Source: Nitrospinota bacterium
Lineage (GTDB): Bacteria > Nitrospinota > Nitrospinia > Nitrospinales > VA-1
DNA length: 61,625 bases
Reading direction: 5' to 3'
Assembly: GCA_009873635.1 (NCBI GenBank)
Contig: WAHY01000013.1
Span: 1 to 61,625, forward strand
The position numbers and the translations under genes were made by a program. The notes below the pieces were generated by a model, which saw nothing but the letters and a program-made list of their open reading frames with translations, ran no database searches and was not told where the DNA came from. How positions within the stretch are numbered: position 1 is the first letter of the stretch; each line of letters starts with the position of its first letter. Shown here piece after piece: positions 11,770-15,368 of this stretch.

Positions 11770-13131
11770 ATGAAGACCGAAACCAATAATAAACGTGGGT
11801 TCTGGGCCAGTCGATTGGGATTTATTCTTGCCGCTTCCGGTTCCGCTGTGGGACTCGGCAATATCTGGAAGTTTCCCTATATCGTAGGACAAAATGGTGG
11901 CGGAGCGTTTGTACTCATTTACCTTGTTTGCATCTTCATAATCGGCACCCCCATCATGTTGACCGAGTTTACTCTTGGGCGAAGGACCAACCGAAATCCT
12001 GTCGGTGCCTTTGAACAACTAAAGCCCAACTCGCCCTGGACCGGTATCGGGTATATGGGCGTTCTCGCAGGTTTTTTGATTCTTTCCTTTTACGGTGTGG
12101 TGGGCGGCTGGACCTTTGCTTACATAGTAAAAGCAATCAGTGGTTCAGTGATGGGGTTCTCGTCCCCAAAAGAAGCAGGAGAGTTTTTCGGAAACTTCAT
12201 AGGAAATACTTCCGAAGTCCTTTTTTATCATGCATTGTTCATGGGTACCTGTATCGCTATCGTATTAAGGGGTATACATGGCGGTATTGAGAAGGCCTGC
12301 GATATTCTCATGCCGACACTGGTTATCATCCTTTTCCTTTTAATGTTACGTTCTCTAACATTAGATGGAGCGATGGAAGGGGTTGCTTTTTACCTGACTC
12401 CCGACTTCAGCAAAATCAGTGCTAACGTAGTATTGATTGCGCTGGGGCAGGCCTTCTTCTCACTCAGCCTGGGTATGGGATGCATGATCACCTACGGCAG
12501 TTACCTTTCTGAAAAAGAAAACCTGACCTCTTCTACTGTTTACGTGGTGATGTTCGACACCCTCATCGCCCTTTTAGTTGGCATGGTTATTTTTCCGGCA
12601 GTATTCGCGATGGGGCTCGAACCTACAGAAGGGCCGGGTCTGGTTTTCAGCGTACTCCCCACCGTGTTCGCCAGCATGCCAATGGGTCACGGTGTCGCCG
12701 TTATATTTTTCTTGCTTCTGGCTATTGCCGCTATCACTTCTGGAATTTCTCTGCTGGAGGTTGTGGTGGCTTACTTCATCGACCAACGTGGATGGCCACG
12801 AAAAAAAGCCGTGCTTATTGTCGGATTAATGATCTTTGCTTTTGGTGTTCCCAGCGGATTATCGTTCGGGGTCATGGCAGATATCAAGTTTCTTGGAATG
12901 AACTTTTTTGACCATGTCGATAACATCGCTTCCAATTATTTCCTTCCATTGGGTGGTATGTTAACAGCAATTTTCGTCGGTTGGGTTTGGGGTACGAAAA
13001 ACGCGCATGAAGAAATTGAAAAAAATGAAAACAAATTTGGTTTTCCCTGGGCACAGTGCTGGGAGTTCCTGATCCGCTATATCAGCCCGGTAGCGGTCGG
13101 CTTTGTTTTCATCGCCAAATTCTTTCCTTGA
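11770..13131 (+). CDS. Sodium-dependent transporter, NSS/SNF family
   Basis: 453 residues with about eleven membrane segments, the usual prokaryotic neurotransmitter:sodium symporter size. The N-terminus has the family signature with the unwound TM1 sodium and substrate site (GSAVGLGNIWKFPY at residues 22-35, then NGGGAF). Members bring amino acids or related small molecules into the cell with sodium; the substrate here is unknown. The ATG at 11770 follows an in-frame TTG at 11767; no good ribosome site is visible. The stop TGA overlaps the ATG of the following cbiZ gene (TGATG at 13129), so the two are translationally coupled. Confidence 0.93.
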   Translation: MKTETNNKRGFWASRLGFILAASGSAVGLGNIWKFPYIVGQNGGGAFVLIYLVCIFIIGTPIMLTEFTLGRRTNRNPVGAFEQLKPNSPWTGIGYMGVLAGFLILSFYGVVGGWTFAYIVKAISGSVMGFSSPKEAGEFFGNFIGNTSEVLFYHALFMGTCIAIVLRGIHGGIEKACDILMPTLVIILFLLMLRSLTLDGAMEGVAFYLTPDFSKISANVVLIALGQAFFSLSLGMGCMITYGSYLSEKENLTSSTVYVVMFDTLIALLVGMVIFPAVFAMGLEPTEGPGLVFSVLPTVFASMPMGHGVAVIFFLLLAIAAITSGISLLEVVVAYFIDQRGWPRKKAVLIVGLMIFAFGVPSGLSFGVMADIKFLGMNFFDHVDNIASNYFLPLGGMLTAIFVGWVWGTKNAHEEIEKNENKFGFPWAQCWEFLIRYISPVAVGFVFIAKFFP

Positions 13132-13781
13132 TGTCCAGAATCAATATCAAGGTTCACAATAAAACCCTTGTAGTCAATTTGCCCGAAACCTGTCAAGTAT
13201 TGAGCTGGGCACCTTTTAATCCCGGCCCAACCCAGACCCGGTGTATCTTCAACCACCAGTTGGACGAAGGCATCAAAGAAAAGTTATCAGATATTTTTAA
13301 AAACCTTCAGAAAGACATTGGCTTGCCGGAAAACGCAGTGGGCCTGCTGACTTCTGCCGAAGTGGAAAAGTACAGCACTCGCTATATGCTGTCCAGCCGC
13401 CATTGGGTAGAAACGGTATGCACGGTTGGCCTGGACAACAGCCGTACAGCAGGAGAAGCAGCGGATGTAAAAAAAACCGATGAGAAGAACCCTTACGGAA
13501 CCATTAATATCATTCTTGCTACCAACGCCCTACCTCATGTCTCAGGGCAATTGGAAGCCATACAGGTTGCCACTATGGCCAAGACCCGCGCGTTATTTGA
13601 TATGGGAGTCAAAAGCCGAAAGTCCGGCACCCCTGCTACCGGCACGGGGACCGACTGCATTGTGCTGGCATCATCAGGTGAAGTGAAACAAAACTTTTGT
13701 GGCATGCATACCCGGCTTGGGGAGCTTATTGGACAGACCGTTTATGAAGCTGTTAAAGAAGGGATAAAAAATTCCTTATAA
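13131..13781 (+). CDS. cbiZ: Adenosylcobinamide amidohydrolase CbiZ
   Basis: 216 residues. CbiZ cleaves the aminopropanol side chain of adenosylcobinamide or pseudo-cobalamin to give adenosylcobyric acid, letting cells salvage and remodel incomplete or foreign corrinoids. Diagnostic segments are TVGLDNSRTAGEAAD, PYGTINIILATNALPHVSG, ATMAKTRALFDMGVKSRKSG and the glycine-rich PATGTGTDCIVLASSG near residues 165-180. Translation starts at ATG 13131, sharing its A with the symporter stop codon. The usual corrinoid uptake genes (btuFCD) are absent from the window. The product fits the B12 dependence shown by metH. Confidence 0.88.
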   Translation: MSRINIKVHNKTLVVNLPETCQVLSWAPFNPGPTQTRCIFNHQLDEGIKEKLSDIFKNLQKDIGLPENAVGLLTSAEVEKYSTRYMLSSRHWVETVCTVGLDNSRTAGEAADVKKTDEKNPYGTINIILATNALPHVSGQLEAIQVATMAKTRALFDMGVKSRKSGTPATGTGTDCIVLASSGEVKQNFCGMHTRLGELIGQTVYEAVKEGIKNSL

Positions 13782-13823: not shown

Positions 13824-15368
13824 TTATAAATTTTTTTCCTTATTGTATATCCCTGCAGCCCATTCTTTATCACCCAGCCTTTCGCTCAGGCTTTCGGCCA
13901 GCCAGTGAAACTCAAAACTTTCTTCCGCATTTTCCTCTGCTTTTTTATATAACCTCCGCGCCCATTGTTTATCGCCGAATTTTTCGCACAGGCTGTCTGC
14001 CAGACAACAGAAATCAATGCTGTCCTGCGCCAATGCCTCGGCTTTTCTAACAACCTGTTCGGCCCATTTTTTGTCGCCCAGCTTTTCTATCAGGCTTTCT
14101 ACAAGGCTATTTAAATCACTGCTATCCTGTGCTGTTTCCTCGGCTTTCCCATAAATCTCCCTTGCCCACTTGTCATCCCCAAATTTCATACAGATATTGT
14201 CGGCAAGTTCATAATAGTCAGAATGCTCTTTCGCCATGACTTCAGCCTTTTTGTAAACTTTGGCCTGCCAGTCTTTATCGCCAAATGTTTCAGCAATGCT
14301 GTCTGCGAGGTCACAGAGCTCTCGCACATTTTTGGGATTTTTCTCAGCCTTCTGATAGAGTTTTTTAGCCCACTCCGTATCACCCAGAATTTCCTTAACA
14401 CTGTATGCCAGCCAGTTTAGATCCAAACTGCTTTCAGCTCTGGTTTCAGCTTTATCGTATAATTTCTTTGCCCATTCCTTATCGCTGAGTGCCTCAGAAA
14501 CGCTGTATGCCAACCAGTTTAGATCCAAACAGTCTTCGGCCGTCTCTTCTGCTTTTTTGTAAACGGTTTCAGCCCATTGCTTATCTCCCGCATAGGCAAG
14601 GTGATCTCCAACCTGTTTCAGGTCACAGGCATCCTGTGCATTGGCCACTGCATCTTCAAAAGCTTTTTTCAGCCGTTCATCATTATTTAAGAATTCCGGT
14701 TCCTGTTTAGCAGCAGACACGTCTTTTTGAATGGATGATTTGCAATATTCCAGATAATGGATTTTGTCGCCGGCATAAATGAAGCTTTTTTCGTATTTAG
14801 TTTTCGGCAGATGATTACGAGTCTGTAGAAATCCTAACTCCCGGGTTCTATTTTTCAGCAAGGATTCTTCGTTAAAATATCCGCTAATTTCCCGTGCATA
14901 AGGTTCGCTGTCCGTTGCCAGATGGACGCAACCCTCCGGCGCAAGTTTTTGCGCCACCAACTTGACCAGTGCGGGTTTAACCAGCCGGCGCTTGAAATGC
15001 CTTTTTCTCGGCCAGGGATCAGGAAAGTTAATATAAACCGTGCTCAATTCTCCGTCATGGAAAAGGGAAGGGATTTTTTCCCGGACATCTCCATATATGA
15101 CACGAATATTTTTTAAGTGAAGTTCGTTAACCCGGGACAGCAAATTTCTAATGCAGTCTGGTGAGAAGTCGACCCCGACAAAATTGTTTTGAGGCTCCCT
15201 TTGAGCCATTTCAATCAGGAAGTCGCCCATTCCAAAACCTATTTCCAGTTTGACAGGGTGGTCGTTGCCAAATTGCCCTTGCCAATCCGGGTGCTCATCA
15301 ATATTTAGAAAATAAGGGTCTTCCAGAACGAAATCGGAAGAAGAAGGTCTGGCAGTCAACAAACTCAT
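13824..15368 (-). CDS. trmB: tRNA (guanine-N7)-methyltransferase TrmB fused to C-terminal 34-residue helical repeats
   Basis: 514 residues; ordinary TrmB is about 200-240. Residues 1-210 are a complete TrmB, which methylates G46 of tRNA with AdoMet: KLEIGFGMGDFLIEMA (AdoMet loop), FVGVDFSP, INFPDPWPRKRHFKRR (the DPWPKKRH signature), VHLATDSEPYA. Residues about 230-514 are eight or so copies of a 34-residue unit with consensus DKxWAxxxYxKAExxAxxSxDLxxLAxSxxExxG, ending in a partial copy. The repeat is alpha-helical by pattern, distantly like TPR or Sel1 repeats. No frameshift or stop separates the parts and repeat periodicity is clean, so the fusion looks genuine. The repeat role is unknown; tRNA or partner binding is a guess. 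It converges on cbiZ. Confidence 0.92.
   Translation of the reverse strand: MSLLTARPSSSDFVLEDPYFLNIDEHPDWQGQFGNDHPVKLEIGFGMGDFLIEMAQREPQNNFVGVDFSPDCIRNLLSRVNELHLKNIRVIYGDVREKIPSLFHDGELSTVYINFPDPWPRKRHFKRRLVKPALVKLVAQKLAPEGCVHLATDSEPYAREISGYFNEESLLKNRTRELGFLQTRNHLPKTKYEKSFIYAGDKIHYLEYCKSSIQKDVSAAKQEPEFLNNDERLKKAFEDAVANAQDACDLKQVGDHLAYAGDKQWAETVYKKAEETAEDCLDLNWLAYSVSEALSDKEWAKKLYDKAETRAESSLDLNWLAYSVKEILGDTEWAKKLYQKAEKNPKNVRELCDLADSIAETFGDKDWQAKVYKKAEVMAKEHSDYYELADNICMKFGDDKWAREIYGKAEETAQDSSDLNSLVESLIEKLGDKKWAEQVVRKAEALAQDSIDFCCLADSLCEKFGDKQWARRLYKKAEENAEESFEFHWLAESLSERLGDKEWAAGIYNKEKNL

Follow-up and report, generated by a model that had tools for sequence, protein, structure and literature searches.

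A second TrmB-type methyltransferase joined to a TPR-like helical array in Nitrospinota

Architecture of the fused gene

The window, by which we mean the whole 61,625-nucleotide stretch analyzed (contig WAHY01000013.1 of assembly GCA_009873635.1, from a Nitrospinota bacterium), carries at positions 13824-15368, on the minus strand, an open reading frame that begins with ATG and encodes 514 aa with zero internal stops. An earlier note, made from the sequence of the window, had described an intact TrmB domain followed by eight helical repeats without stop or frameshift, and the single frame is indeed uninterrupted. Its length is unusual, because stand-alone TrmB frames of the same class (n=54) measure 180-248 aa from stop to stop. 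The parts of the gene are as follows.

13824..15368, minus strand: trmB-solenoid fusion gene, 514 aa, one open frame, with orthologues in 30 of 77 Nitrospinota genomes, its own included
14730..15368, minus strand: TrmB methyltransferase domain, residues 1-213, Rossmann fold (TIGR00091, match to 3dxz, comparison of key residues)
14688..14729, minus strand: linker, residues 214-227, of low model confidence (pLDDT) and variable sequence (variable alignment columns)
14586..14687, minus strand: unit 0, a divergent first helical unit, residues 228-261 (model helices 229-242 and 247-259)
13872..14585, minus strand: seven complete 34-residue units, residues 262-499 (exact 34-residue spacing, model helices)
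13824..13871, minus strand: C-terminal half unit, residues 500-514, and stop codon (model helix 501-513)

The motif D-x-x-W occurs eight times at a spacing of exactly 34, beginning at residues 262, 296, 330, 364, 398, 432, 466, and 500. The count of eight repeats therefore holds for motifs and somewhat overstates the full units, since the eighth motif of the window protein sits in the 15-residue half unit, leaving seven full units preceded by the divergent unit 0. The number of full units per fused protein depends on the lineage and runs from about 6 to 9.

The N-terminal part scores 153.7 bits against NCBIfam model TIGR00091 (cut-off 112.65) and matches Pfam family PF02390. Its predicted methyltransferase fold matches E. 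coli TrmB 3dxz over 194 residues with rmsd 2.3, and is common to bacterial TrmB as represented by E. coli (3dxx, 3dxy, 3dxz) and B. subtilis (2fca, 7nyb), with Z scores of 25.9 (to 3dxz) and 23.9. PMC10130221 names E. coli TrmB residues whose alanine mutants lose activity, and implicates R155 and T217 in tRNA binding. Of the mutation-tested residues, seven could be placed and compared (R26 was left out); the equivalents of D144, H151, R154, R155, D180, T217, and E220 are all found in the window protein, as D117, H124, R127, R128, D153, T190, and E193. By family models, fold, and the seven placed residues alike, the description of the TrmB domain as intact is borne out, and these residues are common to the fusion and to bacterial TrmB generally.

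For the remainder of the protein, structure prediction, proposed in the earlier note, returned a high-confidence solenoid: the AlphaFold model shows a run of 17 solenoid helices from residue 229 to the C-terminus, and the array modeled alone has a mean pLDDT of 94.4. Helix-turn-helix units of 34 residues, like those seen here, are the building blocks of the TPR, PPR, and HAT alpha-solenoids. No TPR sequence model matches the window array at E 0.01, and no PPR or HAT model is among the families listed at that same threshold; across the fused proteins, TPR_2 matches 11 of 29 members (best E 1.8e-8), and a designed TPR chain, 7obi, matches at E 2e-5. The best Foldseek matches of the array are designed RNA-binding PPR proteins (6een, E 1.4e-6), and Foldseek also matched consensus TPR 8chy and SART3 HAT-C; VIA matches have Z 11-14.5. 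Fold matches to SART3, CstF77, and spliceosomal chains fall at Z of about 11-13, and many others at Z 11-14 include TPR, HAT, retromer, and designed repeats. Because Z 11-14 is the range in which the tool warns about helical repeats, we claim no solenoid subtype.

Distribution, paralogy, and origin

A search of 77 Nitrospinota genomes with a profile of the array found exactly one match in each of 30 genomes, and no array free of TrmB in any of the 77. Carriers make up 12 of the 16 genomes of the window's own genus (designated g1), 8 of 9 in g6, 8 of 8 in g7, and the only genome in each of g9 and g16, while the same search found no fusion in the other 19 Nitrospinota genera. Analyses below use 29 copies, leaving out a piece at a contig end in G014; the copy in G010 runs to the edge of its contig. 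The gene is thus well represented in sister genomes, a point on which the earlier note had called for a check. Mis-assembly is ruled out by the presence of the fusion on contigs of 30 genomes, together with a position-wise correspondence of units between genera.

A scan with patterns for units 1 and 2, which covers only arrays bearing these two patterns, gave 30 loci from 52 matches, filed under Nitrospina, Nitrospinaceae, or Nitrospinota except for one contig filed under Emcibacteraceae. We take this alphaproteobacterial copy (L159, JAJFIR010000037.1) to lie on a mis-binned contig of a public MAG, because it is 90% identical to a g6 copy and adjoins an SNF transporter 87% identical to the window's. 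Among the TIGR00091 matches listed from a 387-genome search, twelve extended TrmB frames (those of more than 400 aa outside Nitrospinota, in G116, G261, and G378, and nine of 317-377 aa) were inspected by eye, and in none is this repeat visible. Three other candidate explanations were set aside. For a phage origin, a scan of viral contigs gave no relative; for a plasmid origin, a tblastn search of plasmids hit 65 records, through TrmB alone or remotely through the repeat alone, and no hit reached 80% query coverage; and for a defense role, the one PADLOC match (mad2) spans residues 41-183, within the methyltransferase part, and is read as a shared methyltransferase fold.

Of the 29 genomes contributing a fused copy, 23 also encode a stand-alone TrmB of 214-248 aa. 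The six that lack it are incomplete (59-89%), and both copies are present in nine of nine fusion genomes with a completeness of 90% or more. The genome of the window has its stand-alone gene at C17:36294-36902, with a product 63% identical to the fused copy. Since an ordinary TrmB occurs in the same genome, the fusion, unlike bacterial TrmB as usually encountered, is a specialized extra copy beside the normal one. The earlier note had held that separate genes in the closest relatives would count against the fusion; relatives carry a stand-alone TrmB too, but as a further paralogue, and a separate array gene was found in none of the 77 genomes. The fused gene is dispensable, given its absence from four of the 16 g1 genomes, two of them 94-97% complete. 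In one of these, G006 (94% complete), the sequence past the SNF transporter runs on unbroken with no fused gene in it, which makes this a genuine absence. Another g1 genome, G004 (1.7 Mb, 97% complete), lacks both the fused TrmB and its usual SNF transporter neighbor.

In a tree built from the methyltransferase parts of 29 fused and 54 stand-alone copies (83 in all), the fused copies form one clade (support 100/95, recovered in 100% of 200 bootstrap trees), which joins the g1 and g6 stand-alone copies (100/99). Forcing the stand-alone copies of g1, g6, g7, and g9 into a clade is rejected at p-AU 0.00085, a value somewhat too low because the group was named after the tree was seen; a single group of these copies together with the fused ones is not rejected (p-AU 0.286). 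The GyrA tree, built from 23 of 26 chosen genomes (two with a weaker match only, and G052 with none, were left out), places g7 and g9 apart from g1 and g6, and the fusion-free genera g2, g3, g5, and g8 nearer to g1 and g6; support is 95/95 for the whole group and only 81/83 and 80/77 for the inner forks. In g1 and g6, wherever the contig is long enough, the fused gene lies between the SNF transporter and purM, with uvrC beyond, and it lies at other places in g7, g9, and g16. The simplest account is a duplication and fusion on the stem of g1 and g6, followed by transfer to other lineages; the gene trees suggest horizontal spread within Nitrospinota. An older duplication with several losses may instead account for the pattern. 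The G052 fused copy is carried by a 6 kb contig that may have been binned wrongly.

Gene neighborhoods differ among lineages. In the window, a gene for CbiZ (adenosylcobinamide amidohydrolase) at 13056-13781 adjoins the fused gene, and CbiZ is near the fusion in only two other searched loci, L101 and L114 (short match). In six g7 loci (L115, L118, L120, L123, L125, L127), the fusion belongs to a conserved neighborhood that also contains Lcl_C-domain, NHL-repeat, TPR, leucine-rich-repeat, and radical-SAM genes; across the ten loci compared, 21 genes fall into the Lcl_C-type cluster. Four loci, each from a different genus, have a gene for a BesD/Halogenase D-like 2-oxoglutarate/Fe(II) enzyme nearby.

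L116:4440-5318, minus strand: BesD/Halogenase D-like 2-oxoglutarate/Fe(II) enzyme, g9
L117:4967-5791, minus strand: BesD/Halogenase D-like 2-oxoglutarate/Fe(II) enzyme, g16
L010:1673-2485, minus strand: BesD/Halogenase D-like 2-oxoglutarate/Fe(II) enzyme, g1
L119:9919-10620, minus strand: BesD/Halogenase D-like 2-oxoglutarate/Fe(II) enzyme, g6

The gene matches PF23169 and PF13640, and the nearest solved chains are Halogenase B (E 1.4e-5), then lysine hydroxylase and BesD. Its product has a conserved H-F-D, the arrangement of hydroxylases of this fold; halogenases are without the acid. It is directly upstream of the fusion on the same strand in g9, g1, and g6, and one frame further upstream in g16. 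It occurs in nine of the 77 genomes, all nine among the 30 with the fusion (Fisher p 8.9e-5, with kinship ignored), and so provides a lead to a candidate partner or pathway. This co-occurrence and the four adjacent loci, with the horizontal spread suggested by the trees, might indicate that the fused gene is an accessory mobile module, moving between lineages sometimes together with that neighbor and serving its pathway, for example in self-protection. We regard such a role as very unlikely: the companion is absent from 21 of the 30 fusion genomes, the window's included, and from eight of the nine that are at least 90% complete, it lies on another contig in five of its nine genomes, and the fused gene keeps a stable place in g1 and g6.

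Conservation of the enzyme and of the array

Ten g1 genomes carrying both copies give 45 pairs. Mean pN/pS over these, a rough measure since pS is near saturation (mean 0.60-0.71), comes to 0.12 in stand-alone TrmB, against 0.22 in the methyltransferase part of the fusion and 0.25 in its array. Purifying selection acts on the fused copy, whose rate of evolution is roughly double that of the stand-alone copy. Its key residues are nonetheless retained. D117, H124, R128, D153, and E193 are present in all 29 fused copies and R127 in 27, while position 190 is Thr in 26 and Ser in three; in stand-alone copies the same column is Thr in 38 and Ser in 16. Retention of the catalytic residues in nearly all of the 29 makes it most improbable that the fused protein is a decayed TrmB serving as a non-catalytic, binding-only scaffold, a notion to which the faster evolution and the loss of four otherwise invariant residues might lend themselves.

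Those four residues cluster. Over 52 of the 54 stand-alone copies (the distant g17 and g18 copies were left out), 69 columns are conserved, and six of these are kept in fewer than half of the 29 fused copies. Y69, H70, K71, and R74, which share a single loop and helix following the second strand, are found in 52, 52, 50, and 52 of the 52 stand-alone copies, as against 2, 2, 2, and 9 of the 29 fused copies; the remaining two columns are a Leu near the start, deleted in fused copies, and K121, mostly Arg. All four letters are retained by the g9 fused copy, and Y69 and K71 by that of g16, and the change is thus likely to have arisen inside the fused clade. The altered Y-H-K...R loop, a further difference from bacterial TrmB, suggests that substrate handling shifted in most lineages. 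Taken further, loop change and faster evolution would fit an enzyme that has moved to another substrate, methylating guanine N7 in rRNA, tmRNA, mRNA, or a subset of tRNA reached through the docking arm. We find a change of this kind rather unlikely, because, of the placed residues implicated in tRNA binding, the equivalent of R155 is kept and that of T217 is Thr or Ser, and because the g9 copy has all four letters.

Units of the array correspond by position across genera. In ten genus pairs, units at the same position are 0.52-0.63 identical and units at different positions 0.39-0.47, with 0.43 between units inside one protein. The best match is the same-position unit in 423 of 528 comparisons of g1 with g6, and in only 32 of 75 for g1 with g16. 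Conservation is concentrated in units 0-4, where helix-A positions 2, 5, and 6 have mean conservation of 0.98, 0.92, and 0.99, with letters that change along the array; at positions 5-6 they are N-W in units 1 and 2, C-D in unit 3, and Y-E in unit 4. In TPR domains, such helix positions line the ligand groove. We take positions 2, 5, 6, and 9 of the array to be groove-facing, on TPR numbering mapped by hand without coordinates and off by one in unit 0. This putative groove set has conservation of 0.83 in units 0-4 against 0.50 in units 5-7, compared with 0.82 against 0.71 for core positions and 0.70 against 0.54 for the remaining positions. Part of the drop in units 5-7 reflects a unit number that differs between lineages and a less certain alignment in that region. 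Positions that are near-invariant and yet specific to their unit are as expected of a groove for one specific ligand, but they could instead serve packing against the methyltransferase domain.

The array of the window protein is acidic, with net charge -21 and pI 4.7. Arrays of the 29 fused proteins average net -18.5 and pI 4.9 and are negative in every case, those of g7 being less so (net -2 to -19), and the methyltransferase part is near neutral. Unit-specific conservation in so strongly negative an array points to a ligand that is a protein or peptide, and the acidity disfavors direct RNA binding. The docking arm proposed in the earlier note is therefore upheld in part: a solenoid, unit-specific positions, and retained catalytic residues speak for it, while, of the ligands that the note suggested (tRNA, ribosome, or a protein partner), direct binding of the array to RNA is disfavored. 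The PPR and HAT fold matches nevertheless leave room for contact of the array with RNA. Furthermore, although residues 214-224 of the linker have pLDDT below 50 in the full-length model, pTM for that model is 0.83, high for two domains on a loose linker, which hints at a fixed predicted arrangement of arm and enzyme. Both points, along with the scaffold role of WDR4 described in PMC10590456, suit a second m7G46 enzyme with a built-in helper, its array contacting tRNA or cradling the methyltransferase. Such an enzyme would resemble Trm8-Trm82 or METTL1-WDR4, in which tRNA binding is scaffolded by a repeat protein that is itself non-catalytic. We consider this unlikely, given a net charge negative in 29 of 29 arrays, and given that an m7G46 enzyme with only a redundant role should not persist next to the stand-alone one in all nine fusion genomes of at least 90% completeness.

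A proposed partner-docking methyltransferase and its relation to known enzymes

The best reading of the sequence evidence is that the fused protein is an active, specialized m7G methyltransferase with a TPR-like docking arm. We judge it somewhat more probable than not that this is a second, catalytically competent TrmB of Nitrospinaceae, derived by a single duplication and fusion, whose solenoid arm docks a partner and thereby places the enzyme at a particular site or substrate pool. The housekeeping trmB would have been duplicated once, with one copy becoming fused to a TPR-like alpha-solenoid. The first four or five units would form a groove for a conserved partner; the strong acidity of the array makes a protein or peptide the likeliest one. 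Once docked, the enzyme would act at a given site or on a given pool of substrate. Judging from its residues, the enzyme part would move a methyl group from SAM to guanine N7, and the stand-alone TrmB, by its ordinary sequence, would supply the bulk of m7G46. We infer methyltransferase activity, a groove with a protein partner, and a special substrate pool each on this basis. More tentatively, the protein may be a partner-addressed guanine-N7 methyltransferase whose acidic solenoid binds a specific protein through a conserved, unit-specific groove, which acts on an RNA or a subset of RNA other than bulk tRNA G46, and which moves horizontally as a module among marine nitrite oxidizers.

Close parallels are Trm8-Trm82 and METTL1-WDR4, in which an m7G46 methyltransferase works with a repeat protein; the fold match of the fusion to METTL1 has Z 22.0. 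The partner in those systems is a separate WD-repeat propeller, whereas the fusion has an alpha-solenoid on the same chain, and no WD-repeat propeller was found within the fused protein, the models showing an added part that is all helical. Compared with bacterial TrmB, the fusion adds about 300 residues of helical repeats. The thermophilic TrmB of Aquifex aeolicus likewise has a C-terminal addition, which is reported in PMC6320965 to affect stability and the choice of G46. We take that addition to be far shorter than the array.

TrmB fusions as such are already known from NCBIfam, which has NF010719 for a longer TrmB and NF002421 for a PrmC-TrmB fusion. The fused protein matches these only weakly (72.8 and 60.3 bits, far under cut-offs of 402 and 567), and the added domains differ; the organisms concerned are presumably Campylobacterota and Rickettsia. 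Our search of the openly licensed literature turned up no TrmB bearing a TPR-like array, in keeping with the earlier note, which did not recognize the fusion as described, and a fusion of the solenoid type appears to be new.

To our knowledge, bacterial TrmB is a small enzyme that works without a partner protein. The eukaryotic m7G46 enzyme, in contrast, depends on a scaffold made of a repeat protein. Kept beside the normal enzyme, a bacterial form with a covalent solenoid would be a natural test of what a scaffold contributes, whether to localization, substrate choice, or regulation. The array offers a defined, conserved surface for direct partner fishing, and the carriers of the fusion belong to an ecologically important and mostly uncultured group of marine nitrite oxidizers.
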